Assembly: GCA_903892175.1 (NCBI GenBank)
Contig: CAITHK010000014.1
Location: 1-32,153 of the forward strand
Length of the DNA stretch: 32,153 nucleotides
Direction of reading: 5' to 3'
From: an uncultured Burkholderiales bacterium
GTDB lineage: Bacteria > Pseudomonadota > Gammaproteobacteria > Burkholderiales > Burkholderiaceae_C
The translations under genes and the position numbers were made by a program. Of this stretch, positions 14,020-32,153 are shown in pieces (the first letter of the stretch is position 1; the number at the start of each line of letters is the position of its first letter). The notes below the pieces were generated by a model. That model was not told the DNA's origin and ran no database searches. It worked only from the letters and a program-made list of their open reading frames with translations.

Positions 14020-14934
14020 TCAGTATTTTTCTGGCACGACCATGTTGTCCGGAACGGGGTGACGGATGTAGTCGGGGTTGCGCACCCGCGCAGGCATCTG
14101 CACCTCGTCGTGCGGAATTTCGTGGTAATTGAATTGACTCAACAAGTGGTCGATGCAGTTGAGACGGGCGCGCTTTTTGTCCACCGCTTGCACCACCCAC
14201 CAGGGGGCTTCAGGAATGTGGGTGCGTTCGATCATGGTTTCTTTGGCGCGGGTGTAATCTTCCCAGCGACGGCGGCTCTCCAAGTCCATCGGACTGAGCT
14301 TCCACTGTTTGAGGGGGTCGTGGATGCGTCCCAAGAAGCGGGCATGTTGTTCGTCATCGGTGATCGAGAACCAGTACTTGATCAGCGTGATGCCACTGCG
14401 TGCCAGCATCTTTTCAAACTCGGGCACGGTGCGAAAAAACTCTTCGTATTCATCGTCGTTGCAAAAGCCCATGACACGCTCGACCCCAGCGCGGTTGTAC
14501 CAGCTGCGGTCGAACAACACGATCTCACCGGCGGCGGGCAAATGGGCCACATAGCGTTGGAAGTACCACTGTGTGCGTTCACGGTCGTTGGGGGCGGGCA
14601 GTGCCGCAACCCTGCACACACGCGGGTTCAGCCGTTGCGTGATGCGCTTGATCACGCCGCCCTTACCTGCCGCATCCCTTCCTTCAAACAAAATAACCAC
14701 CCGCTGGCGCGTGGCCATCACCCAGTCTTGCAACTTCACCAATTCGCCTTGCAAGCGCAGCAACTCCCTGAAGTAAACCGCGCGGTTGACTTGCCCTGGC
14801 TCGTTGAGCGCGTTGCTGTTTTCGTCCGCGCCATCTTCGAAAGACATTTCCAGCTCTTCATCGATCGAATCCAAAATGTCTTCGCGCAAACGACGTATTT
14901 GCTCGTCGTCTAAGGGGGTGTGGCGTTGCGTCAT
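14020..14934 (-). CDS. ppk2: Polyphosphate kinase 2 family protein
   Basis: VVILFEGRDAAGKGGVIKRITQRLNPR (Walker A), VLFDRSWYNRAGVERVMGFC (Walker B), DPLKQWKLSPMDLESRRRWEDYTRAKE. Start placed at MTQRHTPL (14934). Confidence 0.96.
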   Translation of the reverse strand: MTQRHTPLDDEQIRRLREDILDSIDEELEMSFEDGADENSNALNEPGQVNRAVYFRELLRLQGELVKLQDWVMATRQRVVILFEGRDAAGKGGVIKRITQRLNPRVCRVAALPAPNDRERTQWYFQRYVAHLPAAGEIVLFDRSWYNRAGVERVMGFCNDDEYEEFFRTVPEFEKMLARSGITLIKYWFSITDDEQHARFLGRIHDPLKQWKLSPMDLESRRRWEDYTRAKETMIERTHIPEAPWWVVQAVDKKRARLNCIDHLLSQFNYHEIPHDEVQMPARVRNPDYIRHPVPDNMVVPEKY

Positions 14935-14991
14935 TCGGGAGTTTCCTTTGTCTGAGATCATCCCCAAACTGTGTGGCATTTTGATGACAGC

Positions 14992-15025
14992 CTGTCACCG
15001 CTTTTTCACAATCGGTCGCTAGAGT
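14992..15025 (+). promoter_or_regulatory. Candidate PHO box (CTGTCACCGCTTTTTCAC) with TAGAGT -10-like hexamer 10 bp downstream, upstream of the TRAP operon
   Basis: GTCA at 14994 and TTCA at 15005 (11-bp period); 11/18 identity to E. coli CTGTCATAAAACTGTCAC; TAGAGT at 15020-15025. Confidence 0.4.
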
Positions 15026-15065: not shown

Positions 15066-15950
15066 ATTTTCTGGTCTTTTATCCGTCCCTTTCTCTTTTG
15101 TGTGCTGACGTGGTCAGTCACTGGCTGTGCGGTTCGCCCCTATGTGATGGACCAAGCAGCAGCGGCGTTGTCCTCGCAAGCACAATCGTTAGAAGACGAC
15201 TTGGTGCTGGCGCGCGAAGCCAGTGCCTTTTATCTCAAAGTGTCGGAGTCGGTGTTGCGTGAAGTGCCAGGCAACTTGCCATTGGCCGCATCCGTGGCCG
15301 CCGGCTTTACCCAGTATGCCTATGCTTTTGTGGCGCTGGAAGCTGACAAGCGAGAGCCGCAAGATGCCGCTGCCGCCCAGCAATTGCGCGAGCGCGCCGC
15401 CCGTTTGTACGCACGTGCCCACCGCCATGCGATGGCAGCACTCGAAGCCTCAGCGCCTGGCTTTACCCAGTCCTTGAACCGCCCGGATGCGCTCCAAACA
15501 TTGCGTTTGACATCTGCGCAAGTGCCCGTCGCGTATTGGGCTGCTGCTTCTTGGGGCGGATGGATTTCTTTGTCCAAGGACAACCCTGATGTTGTGGCAG
15601 ATTTGCCCACGGCCATTCAACTCGCCAAGCTGGCTTGGCTCAAGCAACCCGATTTTTCTCAAGGGGCTCTGGCCAGCTTGATGGGTACGTTTGAGGCCGC
15701 ACGGCCCGGCGGCTCAGCCGCACAAGCTGCGGTTTATTTTGAACAAGCCGTGGTTGCGGGTGCAGGCCAAAGTGCCGGCGTGTATGTGGCGCAAGCCGAA
15801 AGCCTGGCTTTGCCCAAAGGTGACCGGGCCAGTTTTGAAGCTTTGCTTCACAAAGCCGTGCAGGTCGCCACCCTTCACCGCAATCTGCCAAACGACATCA
15901 TGCGTGAGCGAGCCACATGGCTGCTGGGCATGGCGGACGACCTTTTCTGA
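15066..15950 (+). CDS. TRAP transporter-associated TatT-like TPR lipoprotein (T component); start uncertain, possibly non-canonical ATT at 15063/15066
   Basis: The ORF track starts at GTG 15102, but the open frame extends to 15057 and encodes a lipoprotein signal peptide IFWSFIRPFLFCVLTWSVTGC (lipobox VTGC). Body resembles TRAP-associated T-component family; DctP and DctQM genes follow. Confidence 0.75.
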   Translation: MFWSFIRPFLFCVLTWSVTGCAVRPYVMDQAAAALSSQAQSLEDDLVLAREASAFYLKVSESVLREVPGNLPLAASVAAGFTQYAYAFVALEADKREPQDAAAAQQLRERAARLYARAHRHAMAALEASAPGFTQSLNRPDALQTLRLTSAQVPVAYWAAASWGGWISLSKDNPDVVADLPTAIQLAKLAWLKQPDFSQGALASLMGTFEAARPGGSAAQAAVYFEQAVVAGAGQSAGVYVAQAESLALPKGDRASFEALLHKAVQVATLHRNLPNDIMRERATWLLGMADDLF

Positions 15951-15959
15951 AAGCTTTCC

Positions 15960-16970
15960 TTGTCTTCATACATTTCTTTTTGCCTCGCCTGTGTTTTGGC
16001 TTTTAGCCTTGGCGCTAGCCATGCGGCTGACAAACTGTTGCGTTTGGGCACCTTGGCCCCTAAAAACTCCCTTTACCACCGGCAATTGCTGGAGGTCGGT
16101 GAAGCTTGGCGTACCGCTCAAGGTGCCGGGGCCAAATATGTGGTCTTTCCAGACGGCAGCCAAGGCGGTGAGACAGAACTGGCGCGACGCATGCGCATCG
16201 GCCAACTGCAAGGTGCCTTGTTGTCAGTGGTGGGCTTGCACGAAATTGAGCCTTCCATCAGCGCCCTTCAAGCCATGCCTTTGCTTTTTAAGAATTGGGA
16301 CGAGGTGGACTACGTGCGCGAAAAAATGCGCCCCGCCATGGAGAAGAAGTTTTTCGACAAAGGCTTTGTCGTGTTGGCCTGGGGTGATGCCGGTTGGGTG
16401 CGCTTTTTTTCCAAAGACCCGGCCTTCAGGCCCGATGACTACAAAAAGATGAAATTTTTTGCTTGGGGTGGTGAGGCCGACCAACAAGAGATCATGAAAA
16501 GCTTGGGCTACACCCCGGTACCCTTAGAGACCAGTGACATCCTGCCCTCGGTGCAAACCGGCATGATCAATGTGGTGCCCTCCACCCCGTACTTCGCACT
16601 GGCCAGCCAAATCTACACCATGGCCCCCAACATGCTTGAAATCAACTGGGCGCCGATTGTGGGCGCTTTGGTGGTGACCAAAAAAGCTTGGGACGACATG
16701 TCGCCCGCTACTCAAGAGGTGGTGCGAGCTTCGGGGGAAAAAGCAGGCGCGCAAATTCGCAGCAAAGCCCGACTCGAGGTGGAAGAGGCTGTGGATGCCA
16801 TGAAAAAGCGCGGGCTCACTGTCAACCGTCCCAACTCGGAGCAAATGCGTGAGTGGAACGAGTTGGCCGACAAACTCTATCCCCGCATTCGCGGAACCTT
16901 GGTGCCCGCCGAGACCTTTGACGAAGTCATGCGCCACCTCAAAACCTACCGTTCCAGCAAGGCCAAGTGA
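15960..16970 (+). CDS. TRAP transporter substrate-binding protein (DctP family)
   Basis: Signal peptide MSSYISFCLACVLAFSLGASHAA; DctP-type body (LRLGTLAPKNSLYHRQLLEVGEAW...GGETELARRMRIGQLQGAL...); TTG start. Confidence 0.92.
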   Translation: MSSYISFCLACVLAFSLGASHAADKLLRLGTLAPKNSLYHRQLLEVGEAWRTAQGAGAKYVVFPDGSQGGETELARRMRIGQLQGALLSVVGLHEIEPSISALQAMPLLFKNWDEVDYVREKMRPAMEKKFFDKGFVVLAWGDAGWVRFFSKDPAFRPDDYKKMKFFAWGGEADQQEIMKSLGYTPVPLETSDILPSVQTGMINVVPSTPYFALASQIYTMAPNMLEINWAPIVGALVVTKKAWDDMSPATQEVVRASGEKAGAQIRSKARLEVEEAVDAMKKRGLTVNRPNSEQMREWNELADKLYPRIRGTLVPAETFDEVMRHLKTYRSSKAK

Positions 16971-18748
16971 TGGTGCTGCGTTGGCGCCTGGATGAAGCCT
17001 TGGCCAGCCTGGCTTTGGTTCTCATGGCTTTGATTCCTTTGGTCGAAATCTTGGCGCGCCCCATGCTTGGTAAGGGGGTGGAAAACGCACCCATCTTGGT
17101 TCAGCACTTGGGCCTGTGGATGGCCATGTGCGGCGCCTTGGCGGCTGAGCGACACGGTCATCTGTCGAGCTTGGGCGCTTTGGTACCGGGTCGCCAAGGC
17201 TTGGCCCATGCCAGTGCAGGCGTGATTTGCGGTGTGCTGGCTTGGTCGTGTTGGCAATTGGTCCTCAGCGAGCGAGACGCGGGGCAACAACTGGCCTATG
17301 CGGTGCCCGTGTGGTGGGTTCAAGCCATCATGCCGATTGGCTTTGCGCTCTTGGGGGGCAAACTGGCCATGCGGGGAGAGGCGCTGGCTCCCTGGCGTAG
17401 GCTGAGTGGCTTGGTTTGGCCATTGCTCGGTTTTTTTGTGGGGCGTGCCTTTGACGGCCAAGCCCTCACCCTGTGGCCCATCGGATTGGGCTTGCTGTTT
17501 GTTTTGTTGTGTGGGGCCCCTATCTTTGCTGTGCTGGGAGGCTTGGCTTTGGCGCTGTTTTGGCAAGACGGCTTGCCTCTGGCCTCGGTGGCTTTGTCGC
17601 ACTACCAAATCACCGTCAACCCCTCTTTGCCCGCATTGCCCTTGTTCACACTGGCAGGCTTGGTGTTTGCGCGCACGGGGGCTGCTCAGCGCTTGGGGTC
17701 TGTCTTTTTGGCCTTGTTTGGCGGCGGCGTCATGGGCTCGGTCGTGGCTGCTGCGGTGTTGTGTTCGTGTTTCACTGCCTTCACGGGTGGCAGCGGTGTC
17801 ACCATCTTGGCCTTGGGCGGCTTGTTGCTTCCGCTGCTGCGCAACGCAGGTTACCCAGAGTCCAAAGGCATCAGCCTGGTCACCAGCGCCAGCGCCTTGG
17901 GGGTGTTGTTGGCGCCCTCAGTGCCACTCATCATGTACGCCATCATCGCGCGCGTGCCCATCAACACCATGTTCTTGGCGGGCTTGGTGCCTGCGGTGGT
18001 GATGGTGGGTTGTTTGTTGGTGTTTGGCGGTTATCTGCGGTCACCAGGGGCTCAGACCCGTTCAACTGTCACCGTCATTCCCTTGTCGGCGGCCTGCTGG
18101 GCTGCCAAATGGGAAATCTTGGCGCCCGTGGTGGCCATTGGCTCCCTGGCCAGTGGCTTGGCGACACCCACAGAAAGCGCTGCGCTCACGGCCTTGTATG
18201 CGGTGGCGACGCAGGCATTGGCTCATCGCGAACTGGGTTGGCGCTTGCTGGGCAATTGTTTGTCCGAGTGCGCGCAAATCATTGGCGGGGTCATGCTCAT
18301 CTTAGGCATGGCGTTGGGTCTGACCAATTATTTTGTGGATGCTGGCATTCCAGACCTGGCGGTGAATTGGGTGCAATCGGTCACCCAAAACAAATGGGTC
18401 TTCTTGGTAGCCTTGAATGTGTTCTTGTTGTTCGCTGGTGCGTTGATGGAAATTTATGCCGCCATCGTGGTGTTGGTGCCCTTGCTGTTGCCATTGGCGC
18501 AGAGCTATGGGATCGATCCGGTGCACTTTGGCATCATTTTTCTGGCCAACATGGAGATGGGCTTTTTGTGCCCCCCCGCGGGCATGAACATTTACTTTGC
18601 CTCAGCGGTATTCCAGCAGCCACTTCGTCGGGTCGCGCTGTCGGTGTTGCCTGCATTGGGGGCTATTTTTGTCGGCACCTTGCTGATCTCTTGGTTGCCG
18701 TTGTTGGCTTTGGGTTTGCCAGAATTGGTCAGTGCTTGGTTGCGCTGA
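16970..18748 (+). CDS. TRAP transporter fused small/large permease (DctQ-DctM)
   Basis: 592 aa; N-terminal DctQ-like 4TM segment followed by DctM-like domain (GGSGVTILALGGLLLPLL, PTESAALTALYAV, NMEMGFLCPPAGMNIYFAS). Confidence 0.93.
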   Translation: MVLRWRLDEALASLALVLMALIPLVEILARPMLGKGVENAPILVQHLGLWMAMCGALAAERHGHLSSLGALVPGRQGLAHASAGVICGVLAWSCWQLVLSERDAGQQLAYAVPVWWVQAIMPIGFALLGGKLAMRGEALAPWRRLSGLVWPLLGFFVGRAFDGQALTLWPIGLGLLFVLLCGAPIFAVLGGLALALFWQDGLPLASVALSHYQITVNPSLPALPLFTLAGLVFARTGAAQRLGSVFLALFGGGVMGSVVAAAVLCSCFTAFTGGSGVTILALGGLLLPLLRNAGYPESKGISLVTSASALGVLLAPSVPLIMYAIIARVPINTMFLAGLVPAVVMVGCLLVFGGYLRSPGAQTRSTVTVIPLSAACWAAKWEILAPVVAIGSLASGLATPTESAALTALYAVATQALAHRELGWRLLGNCLSECAQIIGGVMLILGMALGLTNYFVDAGIPDLAVNWVQSVTQNKWVFLVALNVFLLFAGALMEIYAAIVVLVPLLLPLAQSYGIDPVHFGIIFLANMEMGFLCPPAGMNIYFASAVFQQPLRRVALSVLPALGAIFVGTLLISWLPLLALGLPELVSAWLR

Positions 18749-19481
18749 GCGCTTCGAGTTGTGCGGACACGCTCAGGTGGGACAACTGGGCCAATGATTT
18801 GCGTGTATGTCCTTTGGACGGCAAGGCTTCACCTGTGCTCAAGCGCACGGTGATAGACGGTGCTGAAAGAATCTTGTGCAGTGATTCGACAAAACCGATC
18901 TCGCCCACAAATGCCGCGACCAAACAGTGTTCACCTGTGTGGTCGTTGACGTAACGCAAGGCCATGGGGTGAACGTCGACCGCACGTTCAATCGCGGCCT
19001 CAAACAAGTTGGCGTGGAAGGGGCGTACGGCGTGACCCTCGGTGCTGGTGCCCTCTGGAAAGCCGGTCACCCGATAGCCCTGCGCCAAGGCCTCGCTGAC
19101 ATCGCGCACCATCTTGCGCGCAGAACTGGGCGAACCTCGGTTGACAAACACCACTTCGCACGCTTGCGCGATCGCACCCACCACGGGCCAGCTACGCACC
19201 TCTTTTTTGGCCACAAAGATGCTAGGTTGCAAGGACTGAATGATCAGCACGTCAAGCCAAGACACATGGTTGGCCACCAGCAGTTGAGGCCTGTCAAACA
19301 TGGGGCTGAAGTCTGGTTCAGGCGGCAGGTGCACCGTCACCCCCATGCCGCGCAAGGTGCGTTGCGACCAAGCTTGAATTTCGGCCCACTTCGCCTCGCG
19401 GCTCAAGCGTGGACTTCGTACCCACAAGATCCAAAAAGCTTCGATGAATGCCCCTATCAGGCGGATGTACTTGATCAACAT
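18729..19481 (-). CDS. 1-acyl-sn-glycerol-3-phosphate / lyso-ornithine lipid O-acyltransferase (PlsC/OlsA-like)
   Basis: NHVSWLDVLII (NHxSxxD) and FPEGTSTEG motifs. Start placed at MLIKYIRLIGAF (19481); 19508 and 19532 are alternatives. 3' end overlaps the DctQM gene by 20 bp. Confidence 0.88.
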   Translation of the reverse strand: MLIKYIRLIGAFIEAFWILWVRSPRLSREAKWAEIQAWSQRTLRGMGVTVHLPPEPDFSPMFDRPQLLVANHVSWLDVLIIQSLQPSIFVAKKEVRSWPVVGAIAQACEVVFVNRGSPSSARKMVRDVSEALAQGYRVTGFPEGTSTEGHAVRPFHANLFEAAIERAVDVHPMALRYVNDHTGEHCLVAAFVGEIGFVESLHKILSAPSITVRLSTGEALPSKGHTRKSLAQLSHLSVSAQLEALSATKH

Positions 19482-19536: not shown

Positions 19537-19554
19537 ATGTCACCAAATCTTCAT
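19537..19554 (+). promoter_or_regulatory. Candidate PHO box facing the olsB-like/plcP-like operon (ATGTCACCAAATCTTCAT)
   Basis: GTCA at 19539 and TTCA at 19550 (11-bp period); a further GTCA at 19572 is in the same register (3 x 11 bp). Confidence 0.42.
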
Positions 19555-19640
19555 TGTTTTGACTTGCTTGCGTCATGTCGGGTTTCAAAAATAACGTCAT
19601 TGCAAAACACAGCCATTCCTTCACATCACAAGGACCCCCG

Positions 19641-20489
19641 ATGAAAGAACTACCGAACCCCACCATGCCCTTGTCCATGATCGATTTGCCCAGGGGGTCA
19701 CTTCATCGACACGATCTTGAAACTCAAAAAACTCCTGTCTCCCAACAAGCCCCTAAAGACCGTTCGGGTTTGATCGTTCAATGGGCCAAGCACCAAGATG
19801 AGGTGCGTGAAGCCCAGCGCTTGCGCTACAACGTGTTCGCCACCGAAATGGGCGCGCGCTTGAAAGACAGCATTCCTGGCCACGACATTGATTTGTTCGA
19901 TGACTTTTGCGAGCACCTCATCATCCGCGACGACGTGACCCATCAAGTCATTGGCACCTACCGTGTGCTCACGCCTGCCCAAGCCAAACGCATCGGCAGC
20001 ACCTACTCGGATTTGGAATTTGACTTGACCCGTTTGCGTGCTTACCGCGAACGCATGGTGGAGCTCGGTCGCAGCTGCGTGCACCCCGAGCACCGCCATG
20101 GTGGCGTGATCATGGCCTTGTGGGGCGCTTTGGCCGAGTTCATGGTGCGCAACAAGTTGGATGTGATGATCGGTTGCGCCAGCATTCCCATGCTGCACCA
20201 AGGCGTGGTGAGTGGTGAGGTGGCGGCCAGCATTTGGCACCAACTCAAACAAACCCATTTGGCCGACATCGAATACCAAGTGCGTCCGCGCTTGCCTTTG
20301 CCCTTGGACAACTGGGAAGTCAGTGCAGCCTTTGAGCCGCCTGCACTCATCAAAGGCTATTTGCGCTTGGGTGCCAAAGTGTTGGGCGCACCTGCATGGG
20401 ACCCTGATTTCAACACCGCTGACTTGCCGATGTTGATGAAGATCAACGACATGCCCCCACGCTACCGCAAACATTTCTTAGGTGCTTGA
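19641..20489 (+). CDS. GNAT-like N-acyltransferase, OlsB/hemolysin-like acyl-ACP-dependent type
   Basis: EAQRLRYNVFATEMGARL...DDFCEHLIIRD...VIGTYRVL...VELGRSCVHPEHRHGGVIMALWGALAEFM; AAGGA SD before ATG 19641 (track start 19575 is upstream). Confidence 0.85.
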   Translation: MKELPNPTMPLSMIDLPRGSLHRHDLETQKTPVSQQAPKDRSGLIVQWAKHQDEVREAQRLRYNVFATEMGARLKDSIPGHDIDLFDDFCEHLIIRDDVTHQVIGTYRVLTPAQAKRIGSTYSDLEFDLTRLRAYRERMVELGRSCVHPEHRHGGVIMALWGALAEFMVRNKLDVMIGCASIPMLHQGVVSGEVAASIWHQLKQTHLADIEYQVRPRLPLPLDNWEVSAAFEPPALIKGYLRLGAKVLGAPAWDPDFNTADLPMLMKINDMPPRYRKHFLGA

Positions 20490-21256
20490 TGCACTACCGC
20501 GCAGTATTTATTTCTGATTTGCATTTGGGTACGCCCGGTTGTCAAGCCGAGGCCTTGCTGGACTTTTTGAAAGAGCACACCAGCGACTACCTGTACTTGG
20601 TGGGCGACATCGTGGATGGCTGGCAGTTGCGTCGCAACTGGTATTGGCCGCAAGCGCACAACGATGTGGTGCAAAAGCTCTTGCGCAAAGCGCGCAAAGG
20701 TTGCCATGTGGTCTATGTGCCAGGCAATCACGATGAGTTTGCGCGTCACTTCTTGGGCCATCAATTCGGTGGCATCGTGGTCAGTGACGAAGCGGTTCAT
20801 CCGATGCGCGATGGCCGTCGGCTGTGGGTCATTCACGGCGACTACTTCGACGCCGTGGTTCAACAAGCCAAGTGGTTGGCCTATGTGGGAGACTATTTGT
20901 ACGAGTTCACACTCAAGCTCAACCGCTACCTCAACAATTTAAGAGGGCGCTTGGGCCTGCCCTATTGGTCTTTGTCTGCCTACCTCAAACACAAGGTCAA
21001 GAAGGCCTTGAATTACGTCACTGACTTTGAAAAAGCAGTGGCCCATGAGGCGGCCAAAAGAGGTTACCAAGGGGTGGTCTGTGGTCACATCCATCGCGCT
21101 GAAATTCGCGAGGTCGAAGGTGTGCTGTATTGCAACGATGGCGACTGGGTTGAGAGTCGCACCGCCTTGGTTGAAACCACCGAGGGCAAGCTGGAACTTT
21201 TGCAGTGGCCTGCTTACCAGCAAGAAAGCACCGCTGGGGTCATGAAGGTCGCATGA
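20489..21256 (+). CDS. Calcineurin-like metallophosphoesterase, PlcP-like phospholipase C (often annotated as UDP-2,3-diacylglucosamine hydrolase)
   Basis: FISDLHLGTPGCQAEALLDFLKEH, LVGDIVDGWQLRRNWYWPQAHNDVVQKLLRKARKG, VPGNHDEF, VIHGDYFD, CGHIHRAEI, NDGDWVES; overall resembles PlcP proteins more than classical LpxH. TGATG overlap with upstream gene. Confidence 0.82.
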   Translation: MHYRAVFISDLHLGTPGCQAEALLDFLKEHTSDYLYLVGDIVDGWQLRRNWYWPQAHNDVVQKLLRKARKGCHVVYVPGNHDEFARHFLGHQFGGIVVSDEAVHPMRDGRRLWVIHGDYFDAVVQQAKWLAYVGDYLYEFTLKLNRYLNNLRGRLGLPYWSLSAYLKHKVKKALNYVTDFEKAVAHEAAKRGYQGVVCGHIHRAEIREVEGVLYCNDGDWVESRTALVETTEGKLELLQWPAYQQESTAGVMKVA

Positions 21257-22626
21257 AAATTGCCTTGGTCACCGATGCGTGGCAACCTCAAATCAATGGG
21301 GTGGTAACCACCTTGGTTGAATTGGTGGCGCATTTGCGTGAACGAGGTCATACGGTCGAGGTCATCCATCCGGGCTTGTTTCAAACCCGTCCCTGTCCTG
21401 GTTATGCGGGGATTGATTTGGCCGTGAGCCCTTATGCGGGTGTTGTTCAGCGGCTTGCTGCTTTCTCGCCACAAGCCATCCATATCGCGACGGAAGGACC
21501 CTTGGGCTGGGCGGCACGTCGTTGTTGTTTGCGCCAGAAATGGCCTTTCACAACGGCCTACCACACCCGATTTCCAGAAATACTCAAAGCTGCGCTGCGC
21601 GTTCCTTTGTGCTTGGGGTACGCCTTGTTCAGGCGCTTTCATCGCCCCTCCTCGGGCGTGATGGTGCCCACCCATGGCGTCATGCGCTTGTTGGGTGGCA
21701 AAGGGTTCAACACTTTGCGCGCTTGGACGCATGGCGTTGACACCGAGTTGTTTGCCTTTTCTGCGCAAGCACGCAACAACGATTTGTTGTCCGGACTCAA
21801 GCGTCCCATCGCTCTGTACGTGGGACGGGTCTCGTATGAAAAAAACATCGCTGCCTTTTTGGACATGCCTTGGCACGGCAGCAAAGTTGTCTGTGGGGTT
21901 GGCCCCTTAGAGAAAGAATTGAAGTCACGCAACGATGGCGTGCGTTGGTTGGGCGTGTTGCCCCGCGATGTGTTGGCAGGCGTGTATGCCGGCGCCGATG
22001 TGTTCACCTTTCCAAGCCGCCACGAAACCTTTGGCTTGGTCATGTTGGAAGCCATGGCCACGGGGACCCCTGTGGCGGCATTTCCAGTCGATGGTCCTCT
22101 GGAAGTGTTGGCTGCCTCGCAAGACGCACCTTGCCAACGCAAAGGGGGTGTGTTGAGCGAAGACTTGGGTCAGGCCAGTTTGGAGGCACTCAACATCCCG
22201 CGCACTGAAGCCAGGCAGCAGGCCTTGGCCTTCAGCTGGGAGGAGTCCACCCGCTTGTTCGTCCAGCATTTGATGCCGATTCAACGCAAGCCTGCTTTTC
22301 ATGCCAACCGGGTCAGTGATCCGGTCTTCGAAAGTTATTTGAGAAGTACCGGGCGATATGCAGATTACCTGTCTGTGCGCGACGAGTTGATACCGGGTGT
22401 GTTCTCACAAACCGACGTTGTCCTGAGCAACAACTTCAACGCGCACGAACCTCGCTTGCAGGTGTCTTGGGGCGCGTCACCGTCACGTATGCTGTGGATT
22501 GGTTTTCCTCCTTTGAGGGGTGCATTTGTCATCCACGATGGGGGCCGTGTTTTGGCCGTGCAAGGCTTGGTGGAACTGAGGCAACAACTGTCTGCTGGAC
22601 AGGCGCAAAGCCAGCTTGACCCGTGA
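21253..22626 (+). CDS. GT4-family glycosyltransferase (Agt/MgtA-like) with an extra ~114-aa C-terminal region
   Basis: MKIALVTDAWQPQINGVVTTLVELVAHLRERGH; HTRFPEI; VGRVSYEKNI; PSRHETFGLVMLEAMATGTPVAAFPVDGP. ATGA overlap with the metallophosphoesterase gene. Confidence 0.9.
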   Translation: MKIALVTDAWQPQINGVVTTLVELVAHLRERGHTVEVIHPGLFQTRPCPGYAGIDLAVSPYAGVVQRLAAFSPQAIHIATEGPLGWAARRCCLRQKWPFTTAYHTRFPEILKAALRVPLCLGYALFRRFHRPSSGVMVPTHGVMRLLGGKGFNTLRAWTHGVDTELFAFSAQARNNDLLSGLKRPIALYVGRVSYEKNIAAFLDMPWHGSKVVCGVGPLEKELKSRNDGVRWLGVLPRDVLAGVYAGADVFTFPSRHETFGLVMLEAMATGTPVAAFPVDGPLEVLAASQDAPCQRKGGVLSEDLGQASLEALNIPRTEARQQALAFSWEESTRLFVQHLMPIQRKPAFHANRVSDPVFESYLRSTGRYADYLSVRDELIPGVFSQTDVVLSNNFNAHEPRLQVSWGASPSRMLWIGFPPLRGAFVIHDGGRVLAVQGLVELRQQLSAGQAQSQLDP

Positions 22627-22640
22627 GGGCCCAAGGTGGT

Positions 22641-22669
22641 GTGTCACGGCATAGTCACTGATTTGTCAC
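22641..22669 (+). promoter_or_regulatory. Triple PHO-box-like array upstream of ppk1
   Basis: GTCAC at 22643, 22654 and 22665: three perfect 5-mers at exact 11-bp periodicity; AACACT 10 bp downstream of the last unit (22680-22685). Confidence 0.65.
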
Positions 22670-22710
22670 ATTAGCTTGAAACACTAGCGGGCATACACTT
22701 CTTGTCACGT

Positions 22711-24813
22711 ATGTCTGTCCCCACCTTTCAAGAAAACAAACAAACACACTTCGCATCCTCGGTTTGGCTGGACCGTGATCTGAGTTTGCTCGCCTTCAAT
22801 GAGCGTGTGCTGGACTGGGCCAAGCGCGCCGAAGTACCTTTGCTTGAGCGTCTGCGTTATTTGTGCATCGTCTCCTCCAATTTGGATGAGTTTTTCGAAG
22901 TCCGTGCCGCTTTGCACCACAGCACGGCCAACCCCATAGTCGCACCTGACGCCGCCGGTGCCCAGGCCCAGCAATCTTTGAGCAAGCTGGCGCATGAATT
23001 GGTGGACGAACAGTACGCCCTCTATAACGACGTGTTGATGCCGGCGTTTGCCAAAGAAGGCATTCGCATCCTGTCGTTTGGTGAGCGCAACTTGGCACAG
23101 CACCGTTGGGTCAAAACATTTTTTGAACGCGAAGTGCGTCCCTTGCTGTTGCCTGTGGGCTTGGATCCGGCGCACCCATTCCCGCAAGTGGCCAACAAGT
23201 CGCTCAACTTCATCGTGCACCTCTCGGGCAGCGATGCCTTTGGACGCGACAACGAAATTGCGATTGTCAAAGTGCCACGCAGCTTGCCTCGCTTGATTCG
23301 TTTGCCAGACAAACTGTCTGGCAAACGCCTGTTGTTTGTGTCCATTTCCAGTGTGATTCGTGCCCATTTGGCAGACTTGTTTCCTGGCCGTGTCGTGGGT
23401 CAGTTCTCGCAGTTTCGTGTCACGCGCCATTCAGACTTGGCGGTTGACGAGGAGGACGTGAAAAATCTGCGTACCGCCTTGCGCCAAGGCTTGGTGCATC
23501 GCAACTATGGGCAAGCAGTTCGCTTGGAGGTGTCGTCGGGTTGTTCAGAGCACTTGTCCGACTTTTTGCTGCATCAGTTTGAGCTGCCGGTATCGGCGTT
23601 GTACCGCGTGCATGGACCAGTCAATTTGGTGCGATTGAACCAACTGATTGATCTGGTCGACAGCCCCACTTTGCTGTTTCCACGCTACTTCGCAAGTTAC
23701 CCCCACCAATTGTCCACGGCCAGCTCGATCTTTGACCAGTTGCAAAGCGGTGACGTGATGATTCACCAGCCCTACGAAAGCTTTGACGGTGTCTTGGCTT
23801 TTTTGCGTGAAGCCGTGCGCGACCCCGAAGTACTGGCCATCAAGCAAACCATTTACCGTACCGGCGCAGACTCGTCCTTGATGGAGTTGCTGCGCGAAGC
23901 CGTGCAACGTGGCAAAGAAGTCACCGTGGTGGTGGAACTCAAAGCGCGTTTTGACGAAGAGGCCAACATCAATTGGGCTGAAAAGTTGGAGTACATCGGC
24001 GCTCAGGTGGTGTACGGCGTGGTGGGCTTGAAAACCCATGCCAAGATGCTGTTGGTGTCACGCCGAGAGGGGCGCAGCATTCGCCGCTACGCTCACTTGT
24101 CGACCGGCAACTACAACCCGCGCACAGCCAAGCTCTACACCGACGTCAGCCATCTCACGACCGATCCCAAACTCACCCAAGACATCGAAAACGTGTTCAG
24201 TTTGCTGGCCAACCAAAGCAAGATCCCGCGCTTGAACAAGCTGTGGTTGGCGCCGTTCAATTTGCAGCGCAACCTGATCGATTTGGTCGACAAAACCGCA
24301 CAAGCCGCCGCCGGGGGTATGACCTGCCGCATTGTGTTGAAGATGAACACGCTCACCGATGAAAAGCTCATGGAAGCGCTTTTGCGCGCGGGCCAAGCGG
24401 GTGTGTCCATTGACTTGATCGTGCGAGGTGCCTGCATGTTGCCCGCGCAATGCCCGGGCTTGAGCGAGAACATCCGCGTGCGCTCCATCATCGGTCGTTT
24501 CTTAGAACACTCGCGGGTGTTTTACTTCCTCAAAGGTCAATCCGAATCTCTGTATTTGTCCAGTGCCGACTGGATGAACCGCAACATGTTGCGTCGTGTG
24601 GAGCTGGCGTGGCCTGTGGAAGACCCCGCCTTGCGCCAGCGCATCGTGGATGAATGTTTGATGTCGGCGCTCAAGGACAACGTGGATGCTTGGGTTCTCA
24701 ATTCGGACGGGCATTACATACGCGCTGTCCCTGCGCGCTCGCGCGCACTCAAACCCAAGCCTTTGATCGGTGCTCAGTCCACCTTGATGGCCCGATACAA
24801 CACCAAACCCTGA
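22711..24813 (+). CDS. ppk1: Polyphosphate kinase 1
   Basis: FASSVWLDRDLSLLAFNERVLDWA...SSNLDEFFEVRAA; KQTIYRTGADSSLMELLREAVQRGKEVTVVVELKARFDEEANI; GLKTHAKMLLVSRREG; HLSTGNYNPRTAKLYTD; RGACMLPAQCPGLSENIRVRSIIGRFLEHSRVFYF. Confidence 0.98.
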   Translation: MSVPTFQENKQTHFASSVWLDRDLSLLAFNERVLDWAKRAEVPLLERLRYLCIVSSNLDEFFEVRAALHHSTANPIVAPDAAGAQAQQSLSKLAHELVDEQYALYNDVLMPAFAKEGIRILSFGERNLAQHRWVKTFFEREVRPLLLPVGLDPAHPFPQVANKSLNFIVHLSGSDAFGRDNEIAIVKVPRSLPRLIRLPDKLSGKRLLFVSISSVIRAHLADLFPGRVVGQFSQFRVTRHSDLAVDEEDVKNLRTALRQGLVHRNYGQAVRLEVSSGCSEHLSDFLLHQFELPVSALYRVHGPVNLVRLNQLIDLVDSPTLLFPRYFASYPHQLSTASSIFDQLQSGDVMIHQPYESFDGVLAFLREAVRDPEVLAIKQTIYRTGADSSLMELLREAVQRGKEVTVVVELKARFDEEANINWAEKLEYIGAQVVYGVVGLKTHAKMLLVSRREGRSIRRYAHLSTGNYNPRTAKLYTDVSHLTTDPKLTQDIENVFSLLANQSKIPRLNKLWLAPFNLQRNLIDLVDKTAQAAAGGMTCRIVLKMNTLTDEKLMEALLRAGQAGVSIDLIVRGACMLPAQCPGLSENIRVRSIIGRFLEHSRVFYFLKGQSESLYLSSADWMNRNMLRRVELAWPVEDPALRQRIVDECLMSALKDNVDAWVLNSDGHYIRAVPARSRALKPKPLIGAQSTLMARYNTKP

Positions 24814-24823
24814 GGAGTGACCG

Positions 24824-25324
24824 ATGGATTTGATTCTGTGGCGACATGCAGAAGCTGAGGTGGCTGGCCAAGGGAGTGACGACTTGTCACGTCAACTCAC
24901 CCCCAAGGGTGAACGTCAAGCGGCACGCATGGCCGTTTGGCTTGACCGCCATCTGCCAGAGGGTGCACGCGTTTTGGCCAGTCCTGCAAGGCGAACTGAG
25001 CAAACTGTTCAGGCACTGGGGCGCAAGTACAAACTGCGCGATGAACTGGTACCCGAAAGCAGCCCAGACGATGTGCTGGGGCTGGTCAAGTGGCACCCTG
25101 AGACAGGACCCCAAGGCAAAGGCACAGTCCTGCTCGTGGGTCACCAGCCTTACTTGGGCGAGATCGTCTCTCGGCTGATTGGCATGAAAGAAGCGATCTG
25201 TCCTGTACGCAAAGGCTCAGTGTGGTGGCTGCGAGCTCGCCTGAGGGAAGGATCGCTACAAACGGTCTTGATGACCGTGGCCAGCCCAGATCTTATTTCG
25301 CGTTCGTGGGACGACCGGTCTTGA
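24824..25324 (+). CDS. sixA: SixA-like phosphohistidine phosphatase (histidine phosphatase superfamily)
   Basis: LILWRHAEAE N-terminal RH motif; LTPKGERQAARMAVWL; VLASPARRTEQTVQAL; VLLVGHQPYLGEIV. Confidence 0.9.
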   Translation: MDLILWRHAEAEVAGQGSDDLSRQLTPKGERQAARMAVWLDRHLPEGARVLASPARRTEQTVQALGRKYKLRDELVPESSPDDVLGLVKWHPETGPQGKGTVLLVGHQPYLGEIVSRLIGMKEAICPVRKGSVWWLRARLREGSLQTVLMTVASPDLISRSWDDRS

Positions 25325-27280: not shown

Positions 27281-27295
27281 AGCATGAGATGCTAG

Positions 27296-27349
27296 GTCAT
27301 TTTCATGACACATTCGTGTCTCAAAACTGTCATGGGCGCAATTTACACT
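27296..27349 (+). promoter_or_regulatory. PHO-box-like array plus -10 (TACACT) upstream of the porin gene
   Basis: Units at 27296 (GTCA), 27307 (GACA), 27318 (GTCT), 27329 (GTCA), all in 11-bp register; GTGTCTCAAAACTGTCAT (27316-27333) matches 14/18 of CTGTCATAAAACTGTCAC; TACACT at 27344-27349, 10 bp downstream. Confidence 0.68.
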
Positions 27350-27390: not shown

Positions 27391-28743
27391 ATGCGCTTTT
27401 TCTCCCCGTCTTTTGTTGCTTGGCTTGCCTGTTGCGCGACCCTTGGTGCATGCTGGGCTGACGCTCCCTTCTCAACCGAGACCGAAGACCTCACGGCTCG
27501 CTACCAAGTCACTTATAACTGGCAACGGCACGGCGCGTTCAATGCCAGCTACAGCGGTGCCAACAGCATCCAACCCCTTTCAGAAAAAATGTACACCTTC
27601 AGTGCGACAGCGCACTGGGGCTTTCGACCTTGGCAAGACGGTGAGCTGTACTTCAACCCCGAAATCACCCAGGGGGTTCCATTTTCGGGGTCTCTGGTCG
27701 GATTGGGTGGCTTCACCAACGGTGAAATCACCCGAGCGGGCGGCAGCGACCCCAAGGTCTACAAGCAGCGTTTGTTTGTGCGTCAAACCTGGAACCATGG
27801 TGGCGAACAAGAAGCTGTAGAACCCGACTTCAACCAACTCGCAGGCCTGGTCAGCAAAAACCGTTTTGTATTGACCGCAGGCAACTTCTCCACCCTCGAT
27901 GTCTTTGACGACAACGCATACGCCAAAGACCCGCGCACCCAATTCATGAACTGGGGCAACTGGACTTATGCGTCCTATGACTACGCTGCCGATGCCCGTG
28001 GCTTCGGTTGGGGCTTTGCAGGTGAGTGGTACCAAGACGACTGGGTGCTTCGTTTTGGCCGCATGAGCGGTCCCACCACGCCTAACGCATTGCCGACAGA
28101 CTTTGCGCTGGCGCGTCACTACGGCGATCAGCTTGAGATTGAGCGTGCCCACACCTTGGGCGGTCAACCAGGCAAATGGCGCGTGCTGGCTTGGCGCAAC
28201 CGTGCTGTGCTGTCTAGTTTCAACGACGCCACCCAGTGGCTGGTGCAGCACCCCGGCAGCTACAGCGACCCCGTGGCGCTGGTTCAAACCCGCACCAGCG
28301 AAAAAATCAAATATGGTCTAGGTGCCAACATCGAGCAGAGCATTCAGTCGGGTGTTGGTTATTTCTTGCGCGTGATGAAGGCCGATGGTCGCACCGAAAC
28401 CCATGCCTTCACCGAAGTGGATGGATCGTTGTCCTCCGGTCTGGTGTTCAAAGGTGGCTTGTGGGGCAGAGAGGCAGATGCGGTAGGCGTGGCTTACTTG
28501 CAAAACACCTTGTCCCATGACCGTCGTCGGTTTTTGGCTGCGGGCGGCACCTCGTACTTCATTGGCGATGGCCAGCCTTTGACCCACTACAAACCTGAAA
28601 CCATCGTGGAAGCTTTCTACAGTTTTGGCTTGACCCGTGGCACGTGGTTGACGGCCGACTACCAGCGCATACAAAACCCTGCCTACAACGCAGACCGTGG
28701 CCCGATCAATGTGTACGCGGCGCGCTTTCACGCCGAGTTTTGA
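27391..28743 (+). CDS. OprB-like outer-membrane porin (carbohydrate porin family by resemblance)
   Basis: Signal peptide MRFFSPSFVAWLACCATLGACWA; ARYQVTYNWQRHGAFNASYSGANSI...SATAHWGFRPWQDGELYFNPEITQGVPFSG; C-terminal aromatic INVYAARFHAEF. Confidence 0.85.
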   Translation: MRFFSPSFVAWLACCATLGACWADAPFSTETEDLTARYQVTYNWQRHGAFNASYSGANSIQPLSEKMYTFSATAHWGFRPWQDGELYFNPEITQGVPFSGSLVGLGGFTNGEITRAGGSDPKVYKQRLFVRQTWNHGGEQEAVEPDFNQLAGLVSKNRFVLTAGNFSTLDVFDDNAYAKDPRTQFMNWGNWTYASYDYAADARGFGWGFAGEWYQDDWVLRFGRMSGPTTPNALPTDFALARHYGDQLEIERAHTLGGQPGKWRVLAWRNRAVLSSFNDATQWLVQHPGSYSDPVALVQTRTSEKIKYGLGANIEQSIQSGVGYFLRVMKADGRTETHAFTEVDGSLSSGLVFKGGLWGREADAVGVAYLQNTLSHDRRRFLAAGGTSYFIGDGQPLTHYKPETIVEAFYSFGLTRGTWLTADYQRIQNPAYNADRGPINVYAARFHAEF

Positions 28744-29482: not shown

Positions 29483-30304
29483 CTAAACAATCAGTTGTCC
29501 TGATTCTTCAAAGAAGGGGTGAGGACCCTCAAATTTACCCGTGTGCGCGTGGTGCGTGACCAGGTTCGTGCCATTCCACCAGTGCAACAAATAGCCTGAA
29601 GGCTCCATGCTGAACATGGCCTGTGCATCAGGAGCTATGTCCAGTTGAACCGTATGTGCGGTGCTGTGGGCCGTCATCACGGAGCGGCCGCCCACACGAC
29701 TGCGTATGTTGCGGTGCAAGTGTCCGCAGACGATCAGTTCAATGTTGTCGTGCTGCCGAACCAAGTCACTGAAAGCTTCCCGTCCCGATAGGCCAATATC
29801 GTCCATGTGTCCTATGCCCGTGATGAAGGGGGGATGGTGCATCATGACCAAGGTCGGCGTGTATGGGTCGTTGGAAAGGGCTTGTTCCAGCCACGACAAA
29901 CGTGCTTGGCATAGCAATCCTCCACTATGGCCAGTATTCACCGTGTCTAAACCAATGATGCGAAGCGGCCAATGGGGTTCCTGGTGACTAAACTGCCAGA
30001 ACTCACCCTCTGGCTTGACCAGCAAATTGTGAAAGACATGCTGCATCGTCAAGCGATCGTCATGATTGCCGGGCACCACAAGCATGGGATACGTCAATGG
30101 CGCCAAGATGTCTTTCAAGTGCTCGTATTCTTCTGCATCACCGACGTCTACCAAATCGCCTGTGATCAGCAACAGATCTGGTTGCTGGGGTAGCGCCTGT
30201 ACATGAGACACCGCAGCTCTGAGCATGCTTGCTGTGTCCACCTTGTTGTAGGCCAAACGACCTCTAGGTTTGATATGGGTGTCACTGAACTGCGCAATCA
30301 ACAT
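29483..30304 (-). CDS. GpdQ/CpdA-type cyclic-nucleotide/glycerophosphodiester phosphodiesterase (calcineurin-like)
   Basis: MLIAQFSDTHIKPRG, LLITGDLVDVGDAEEYEHLKDILAPLTYPMLVVPGNHDD, MMHHPPF, CGHLHRNI. Confidence 0.88.
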   Translation of the reverse strand: MLIAQFSDTHIKPRGRLAYNKVDTASMLRAAVSHVQALPQQPDLLLITGDLVDVGDAEEYEHLKDILAPLTYPMLVVPGNHDDRLTMQHVFHNLLVKPEGEFWQFSHQEPHWPLRIIGLDTVNTGHSGGLLCQARLSWLEQALSNDPYTPTLVMMHHPPFITGIGHMDDIGLSGREAFSDLVRQHDNIELIVCGHLHRNIRSRVGGRSVMTAHSTAHTVQLDIAPDAQAMFSMEPSGYLLHWWNGTNLVTHHAHTGKFEGPHPFFEESGQLIV

Positions 30305-30323
30305 GGGTATCTCCCAATAAATA

Positions 30324-30347
30324 GCCTCACATCCCTAGATGTGAGGC
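30324..30347 (-). promoter_or_regulatory. Perfect 10-bp hairpin between the ABC substrate-binding gene and the gpdQ-like gene
   Basis: GCCTCACATC-ccta-GATGTGAGGC; no T-tract of normal length follows on either strand. Confidence 0.7.
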
Positions 30348-30365
30348 GTGAAACAGAATTTCGAT

Positions 30366-31652
30366 TTATTCCATAAAGTCTTCGGTGGCTTTGATCAGTT
30401 CAGGCAAAGCCATTTCAGGGGTTTTCTCACCACGCATGACAGCACCAAAGACATCGCGTTGCGCACGCCAGATGCGTACCGACTGACCACCAGGGTAGCC
30501 CGCCCAAGGCAGAGACTTGTCAATTTGTGTGGTTGCGGTGCGGAAGTTTGGGTTGGCTTCATAAAAAGGGCCCAAATATTCAGGGCTGATGGCCAACTGG
30601 TTGGTGGGCAAGTACCCGGTCATTTCCACCACGATTTTTTGGGCTTGTGGACTCGTCACAAATTTGATGAACTCCCAGGCTGCCTTTTGCTTGGCAGGAT
30701 CTTTTGCAAGTGTGATGACTGCGTTGCCGCCAGTGGGTACACCACCTTTGGTTTTGTTGTCGAGAGGAAAACGCGCCGTGGTGAACGTGAATCGACCACC
30801 GACAGCTTCGGTGACCTGCTTCAACTGCGCCGGTGTCGAGAAAAACATCCCGGTCTTACCTGCGCCGAACTGTTGACGTGACTGATCCCAGTCCACCATT
30901 TGCATGGCACCTTCTGTGACAAAACGACGCGCCAATTGCAATGCGCGCAGTCCGACAGCTCCATCAAAGCCGGCCTTCTTGGTGCCCGGTTTGACCAAAA
31001 CCCCGCCCTGTTGGTAGACCAGACCTTGGAACAACCAGTCGTCGGGCCAGGCGTGGATGTCGTAGGACATGCCGTTGATCTCTTTGTTTTGTGCGTGAAT
31101 TTTTCCGGCCAACTTGATCACAGAGTCCCAGTCTGTTGGCATTTTGGTGGGATCTGTGCCAGCGCGTTTGACCAGATCTGCATTGACATACATGATGGGC
31201 GAAGAGGCGTTGAAAGGCAGGCCATATTGCTTGGCGTCCACTTGACCCAGGGCGATCAAGCGAGGTGCGAAATTGGTTTTGGCAAATCCTTCGCCCTCGG
31301 ATTTGAGCAAGGGCTCCAAGCGAACAGTTTGGCCACGTGCGTCTAGCTTACGAATCAACTCGCCAAACAGGTGGTAGCCCGAGTAATACACGTCGGGCAG
31401 TTGATTGGTCACTGCATTGCGCAGCATGACCTGGTGTCCCTCGTCATAACTGGCCGCTGGTGCTCTGAAATTGATCTTGATCTCAGGGTGCAACTTCATG
31501 AACTCTTGCGCCAGAGGCTCATGAAAGCGTGCAAAACTCGGATAACAGTACAACACATCGATGGTGGTGACCTGTTGTGCATGCACTTGCGCAGCCCCAA
31601 ATAACGCGGCGCAGGCGCTGAGTGCCAGACCTAGCCTTTTGAACAACTTCAT
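30366..31652 (-). CDS. ABC transporter substrate-binding protein (UgpB/MalE type, family 1 extracellular SBP)
   Basis: MKLFKRLGLALSACAALFGAAQVHAQQ signal peptide; PDVYYSGYHLFGEL...GLPFNASSPIMYVNADLVKRAG; SD AGGAG before ATG 31652. Confidence 0.9.
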   Translation of the reverse strand: MKLFKRLGLALSACAALFGAAQVHAQQVTTIDVLYCYPSFARFHEPLAQEFMKLHPEIKINFRAPAASYDEGHQVMLRNAVTNQLPDVYYSGYHLFGELIRKLDARGQTVRLEPLLKSEGEGFAKTNFAPRLIALGQVDAKQYGLPFNASSPIMYVNADLVKRAGTDPTKMPTDWDSVIKLAGKIHAQNKEINGMSYDIHAWPDDWLFQGLVYQQGGVLVKPGTKKAGFDGAVGLRALQLARRFVTEGAMQMVDWDQSRQQFGAGKTGMFFSTPAQLKQVTEAVGGRFTFTTARFPLDNKTKGGVPTGGNAVITLAKDPAKQKAAWEFIKFVTSPQAQKIVVEMTGYLPTNQLAISPEYLGPFYEANPNFRTATTQIDKSLPWAGYPGGQSVRIWRAQRDVFGAVMRGEKTPEMALPELIKATEDFME

Positions 31653-31675
31653 ACAAACTCCTGAGGTTAAAAAAA

Positions 31676-32153
31676 TCATGTGCCAGTTATCGTCAGCCCT
31701 TGGATGACTTGTTTGCGTGCGATTAAAAATACAAAGACCAAAGGCATGGTCAGCAAGGTCGCCCCAGCCATCAACGCACCGTAATCAGAGCCCGACTCCG
31801 CATTGGCAAAAAACATCATGCCCAAGGGTGGGGGGGCTAATTTGGTTTCGCTGATCACGATCATGGGCCAGTACAAATCGTTCCAGTGGGCCACCACTGA
31901 AAAGATAGAAAAAGCCGCGAGGGTTGATTTGTAGGAAGGCACAACAATGCGCCAAATGATGTCCAACTCACCCATGCCATCGAGCCTCGCTGCATGGATG
32001 ATGTCGTCTGGGAAAGTTTTGAAGGCCTGCCGCAATAAGAAAATTGCAAACACAGACAGAAAAAATGGCAGCATGATGGCAAAGTAAGAATTCAAGAGAC
32101 CCACAGTTGCCAGGGCGATGTAAATAGGGAGTGCGGTGACCTGAATAGGCACA
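31676..32153 (-). CDS. ABC transporter permease (UgpE/MalG type), truncated at window edge
   Basis: FLLRQAFKTFPDDIIHAARLDGMGELDIIWRIVVPSYKSTLAAFSIFSVVAHWNDLYWPMIVISE (EAA-like loop). Confidence 0.9.
   Translation of the reverse strand, partial: VPIQVTALPIYIALATVGLLNSYFAIMLPFFLSVFAIFLLRQAFKTFPDDIIHAARLDGMGELDIIWRIVVPSYKSTLAAFSIFSVVAHWNDLYWPMIVISETKLAPPPLGMMFFANAESGSDYGALMAGATLLTMPLVFVFLIARKQVIQGLTITGT

Follow-up and report, generated by a model that had tools for sequence, protein, structure and literature searches.

ppk1, the gene for polyphosphate kinase 1, is preceded in the stretch of DNA that we analysed (32,153 nucleotides, here called the window) by a candidate PhoB-dependent promoter of its own, a reading to which we assign a probability of roughly 0.87. 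From the sequence we infer PhoB binding at ppk1, the start site, induction at low Pi and the direction of control. The original prediction of a Pi-responsive promoter of the PhoB class was supported at this level by a position weight matrix (PWM), by conservation among orthologs and by the presence of PhoB, PhoR and Pst. PhoB-type control of ppk1 is a textbook kind of regulation, of a type already known, and the site offers a concrete candidate for a PhoB target.

The site upstream of ppk1

The 84-bp gap between the stop codon of a glycosyltransferase (GT) gene and the ppk1 ATG, at 22627-22710, holds a whole array of GTCAC units on the + strand. Its elements, and the gene that they precede, are as follows.

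22643..22647, + strand: unit 1, GTCAC; accessory, in a register that differs in the nearest relatives, G009 and G033
22653..22674, + strand: core PHO box AGTCACTGATT TGTCACATTAG, two 11-mers that correspond to units 2 and 3; picked out by a pstS-derived PWM and a genome-wide profile, with conserved columns in six ppk1 orthologs
22680..22685, + strand: predicted -10 hexamer AACACT; NANACT is found at the same place in six orthologs, and the equally spaced hexamer of pstS promoters is TANANT
22711..24813, + strand: ppk1, polyphosphate kinase 1; TIGR03705 at 873 bits, with PF13089, PF02503, PF17941 and PF13090; identity firm

Three GTCAC repeats at 11-bp spacing had been claimed before ppk1, and we confirmed them at 22643-22647, 22654-22658 and 22665-22669, with a period of exactly 11 bp; AACACT likewise lies where it had been placed, exactly 10 bp past the end of TTGTCAC at 22669. 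The further claim, that three identical 5-mers in register are unlikely to arise by chance, also held: the GTCAC triple at an 11-bp period matched once in the window and in none of 100 dinucleotide shuffles, and it is the sole match in the 3,394,576-base (3.39-Mb) assembly, in which the reversed-pattern control gave none. Moreover, no 5-mer besides GTCAC is present as three copies with an 11-bp period on the + strand of the window, and shuffles of the 84-bp spacer gave p ~1e-4 for a 5-mer repeated in this way. An extra GTCAC at 22704-22708 does not share the register of the array.

We considered two other ways of assigning the elements. The box that starts at 22643 was rejected as the pair replacing the -35 element, since the -10 position then becomes CATTAG and the PWM score drops to 3.76; CATACA (22692-22697) was dropped as an alternative -10 because its spacing is not conserved. 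Taken alone, AACACT is a weak -10 with a poor match to TATAAT, and a generic sigma-70 scan found no promoter at the ppk1 site.

A genus PHO motif from pstS selects the ppk1 site

We trained the PWM on pstS promoters only, from 18 same-genus genomes (own pstS included), with no ppk1 sequence. In all 18 promoters, GTCAY-N6-GTCAY-N10, with no more than one mismatch in the half-sites, precedes a -10-like hexamer, and these upstream regions define the genus PHO motif as GTCAY-N6-GTCAY-N10-TANANT; site selection relied on a consensus containing the -10, a mild bias, and 13 of the 18 match this consensus in full. The own pstS site is GTCACaaagccGTCAC-N10-TAAATT (full site GTCACaactGTCACaaagccGTCACaaactttgtcTAAATT). 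The motif is thus defined well enough to read the phosphate regulon from sequence.

A scan with this genus-specific box, built without ppk1, indeed picks the ppk1 site: on both strands of the window, units 2 and 3 plus AACACT rank second among ~64,000 positions. Five window sites scored at least 15, compared to 0.12 expected in dinucleotide shuffles; these precede a TRAP operon (20.3), ppk1 (16.8), an oprB porin gene (16.6), olsA (16.5) and ppx (15.0), and the sixth-ranking site scored 11.05. When the ppk1 spacer alone was shuffled, the score of the site was reached in 0.015% of trials.

The whole source genome (3.39 Mb; a draft assembly with an estimated contamination of 6.55%) gave three matches to a sequence profile made from the pstS sites, namely pstS, a diacylglycerol kinase-like (dgkA-like) gene and ppk1. 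A search for the exact pattern GTCAY-N6-GTCAY-N11-A-N3-T gave five matches (reversed control, 0), and four of the five precede pstS, ppk1, olsA and the dgkA-like gene, the last with the following site.

G000:C65:2804-2835, - strand: strong PHO promoter GTCATgacaatGTCAC-N10-TAAATT, before the dgkA-like gene

We attribute the fifth exact-pattern match (C183:6007-6038), which falls within a truB-like frame, to chance. After the dgkA-like gene comes a gene for a UgpC-like ABC ATPase, both names being read from the translation only.

PhoB and PstS were identified both in this genome and in relatives. The PhoB of this genome scores over the TIGR02154 cut-off, and contig C62 carries pstS-pstC-pstA-pstB-phoU-phoB-phoR. 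In its DNA-binding domain, the protein could be aligned with E. coli PhoB of known structure (3t72, 1gxp), and the recognition helix, RTVDVHVKRLR, matches the E. coli helix RTVDVHIRRLR; this agrees with the shared half-site.

Conservation of the box in close relatives

Among 21 same-genus upstream regions, the ppk1 box was found with p < 0.01 each in G009, G033, G011, G023 and G035, besides the window, and the hexamer is NANACT in 6/6 of these box-bearing orthologs. In a box-anchored alignment of the six, the majority base accounts for 81% in the half-sites and 89% in the -10, compared to 46-52% in the flanks; the six were chosen by a matrix that contains the -10, so the alignment p-value is inflated. 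Selection by half-sites alone added G003, the one exception to NANACT, in which the GTCAT-N6-GTCAT pair before ppk1 is followed by a poor -10.

The expectation that orthologous ppk1 upstream regions would share the site was therefore correct for close relatives, which keep the box and the -10 geometry, but not for many remoter ones. By PWM, the box is absent or weak in the remoter same-genus genomes G018, G026, G021, G005, G010 and G001, and among 22 genomes from other families of the order a clear ppk1 site was found in G043 only, which limits the claim to the close clade.

The three-unit array fared less well as a description of the operator. Units 2 and 3 are conserved, but in G009 and G033 the extra unit of ppk1 lies 9 bp, not 11 bp, upstream of unit 2; the extra upstream unit is likewise 9 bp away at pstS of the own genome, G009 and G011. 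Thus, the perfect three-unit register is local, and the conserved operator consists of units 2 and 3.

A possible Pho island around ppk1

The neighbors of ppk1 in the window include genes of lipid and polyphosphate metabolism, together with further predicted PHO sites.

14994..15025, + strand: PHO promoter of the TAtT-DctP-DctQM TRAP operon, GTCACcgctttTTCAC-N10-TAGAGT; best PWM score of all window sites, with conservation in G011 and G010
18729..19481, - strand: olsA-like acyltransferase, divergent (ORF runs on to 19532); NF052553 at 124 bits, below cut-off; PF01553
19493..19524, - strand: PHO promoter of olsA, GTCACtcttttGTCAC-N10-TAAGCT; PWM and exact-pattern match
19539..19592, + strand: four-unit PHO array of the olsB operon; GTCAC 19539, TTCAT 19550, GACTT 19561, GTCAT 19572, then N10 and AAAAAT
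19575..20489, + strand: olsB-like ornithine N-acyltransferase (probable start 19641); NF052554 at 167 bits, below the cut-off of 350; PF13444
20486..21256, + strand: calcineurin-like phosphoesterase of the LpxH type; PF12850 and PF00149, LpxH model below cut-off; PlcP-like by context
21253..22626, + strand: GT4 glycosyltransferase that closes the upstream operon; PF13439 and PF00534; Agt-like by context and synteny
24824..25324, + strand: sixA-like phosphohistidine phosphatase; TIGR00249 at 70.6 bits, slightly under the cut-off of 74.5
27289..27320, - strand: PHO promoter of ppx, GACACgaatgtGTCAT-N10-TAGCAT; PWM, with similar sites in several relatives
27318..27349, + strand: PHO promoter of the oprB-type porin gene (27391-28743), GTCTCaaaactGTCAT-N10-TACACT; PWM, with the orthologous site in G003 scoring 26.0

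The lipid-gene assignments fall under the NCBIfam cut-offs and rest partly on context. The sixA-like gene, which begins after a gap of 10 bp, is likely co-transcribed with ppk1. Divergent PHO arrays sit between olsA and the olsB-plcP-like-GT operon, and the divergent sites of ppx (-) and oprB (+) adjoin at 27289-27349. The TRAP operon genes (15102-18748) are divergent from ppk2 (14020-14979, - strand). On the - strand, 29483-32152 encodes a metallophosphoesterase, a binding protein resembling UgpB (67 bits, well short of the cut-off) and an ABC permease, possibly a glycerol-3-phosphate uptake operon whose start lies outside the window. At 1619-1653, CGAAGTG is present in five copies as a perfect tandem repeat.

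The four-unit register of the olsB array is common to G011, G023, G026, G005 and G021. Since olsB has this array of its own, the upstream operon is itself likely a Pho operon, which would make the ppk1 promoter internal to a Pho island. The proposal that ppk1 has a promoter separate from the upstream GT operon is thus retained in part: an additional promoter of its own is predicted, but the GT operon also has a PHO array. In G018, G005 and G021, a single stretch holds olsB-plcP-(GT)-ppk1-sixA, ppx and pstSCAB-phoU-phoB; in the source genome the pst-pho part is on a different contig from the ppk1 stretch.

The window might even be one PhoB-controlled island that combines lipid replacement (olsA, olsB, plcP-like, GT) and polyphosphate turnover (ppk1, ppx) with an OprB-type porin and a TAtT-type TRAP transporter, such that phosphate freed from phospholipids is stored as polyphosphate and the transporter imports a phosphorus-related substrate under PhoB control; this full scheme we regard as rather doubtful. 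Such an island would tie polyphosphate synthesis at low Pi to phospholipid replacement. The uncharacterised TRAP transporter is, by prediction, a probable Pho gene.

Alternative explanations

We considered that the array might be a functionless chance repeat, based on the shortness of the motif, the different register of unit 1 in relatives and the lack of the box in many remoter ones. However, the triple is unique in the genome, an independent PWM selects the site, and the box and -10 are conserved in five relatives in which the flanks are poorly conserved, so that we find chance hardly credible. We also considered that the operator might serve, not PhoB, but another regulator of the OmpR/PhoB family that reads direct repeats of ~11 bp. 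Regulators of the OmpR family generally bind direct repeats of 10-11 bp, and the genome has ~20 PhoB-like matches, both of which count for this explanation. Nevertheless, it is highly improbable, given that the same half-site, period and -10 spacing are found at pstS in the own genome and in 17/17 relatives tested, that the recognition helix of PhoB matches that of E. coli, and that the other sites in the window and genome precede phosphate genes.

If, instead, PhoB does bind but ppk1 is mainly driven by read-through from the olsB operon, the site would merely tune or repress transcription. The gap is just 84 bp and no terminator was seen in it, such that transcription from upstream could run on into ppk1; moreover, the olsB operon is itself equipped with a conserved PHO array, and relatives with plcP or GT beside ppk1 often have no ppk1 box. 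In contrast, the site overlaps the -35 position and ends 10 bp before a conserved -10, which is the layout of an activated promoter, and the box is equally strong in G009 and G033, in which ppk1 is several kb from the lipid genes. We therefore consider it improbable that read-through is the main source of ppk1 transcription.

Proposed mechanism

We favor activation of ppk1 from its own PhoB-dependent promoter. At low phosphate, PhoB phosphorylated by PhoR would occupy both 11-bp half-sites (22653-22674) in head-to-tail orientation, replace the -35 element and bring sigma-70 RNA polymerase to AACACT (22680-22685); the ppk1-sixA mRNA would then start near 22692, ~19 nt upstream of the ATG at 22711. 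Unit 1 (22643) may be an extra half-site for cooperative PhoB binding. PhoB may drive transcription of ppk1 from two promoters, its own and that with the PHO array of the olsB operon.

Comparison with known systems

Paired 11-mer boxes are the standard PhoB operator (PMC4415409). Like E. coli PHO promoters of the pstS/phoA type, the ppk1 site has a pair of 11-bp half-sites in direct repeat, with a TGTCA-like core, at the -35 position (PMC4415409, PMC3348028), a -10 located ~10 bp past the second half-site and the same PhoB recognition helix; it differs in that the half-site is GTCAY, and in that a third unit is present at ppk1 and the -10 is weaker (AACACT compared to TANANT). Many PhoB sites within E. 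coli genes are inert and unconserved (PMC10294691), whereas the ppk1 site lies between genes and shows conservation among close relatives.

A rise of ppk under low Pi is counted among the common Pho responses (PMC4415409). Membership of ppk in the Pho regulon is not universal: in Pseudomonas putida BIRD-1, Ppk varied little with Pi (PMC5082522), and among the polyphosphate genes of Herbaspirillum seropedicae only ppk2 was reported to be induced, at high Pi (PMC8222739). In P. putida, PlcP and OlsAB are PHO-dependent, and Ppk not clearly so (PMC5082522). In plcP-agt clusters, plcP lies beside a glycosyltransferase gene with a Pho box (PMC4796936), and in Burkholderia sensu lato Pho boxes precede olsB (PMC7814305). 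A limited literature search found no paper that describes the arrangement olsA-olsB-plcP-like-GT-ppk1-sixA-ppx. Unlike the plcP-agt and olsBA clusters, the window has all of these genes in one island, and unlike other Pi-controlled ppk genes, ppk1 here follows lipid-remodelling genes and has a predicted internal PHO promoter.
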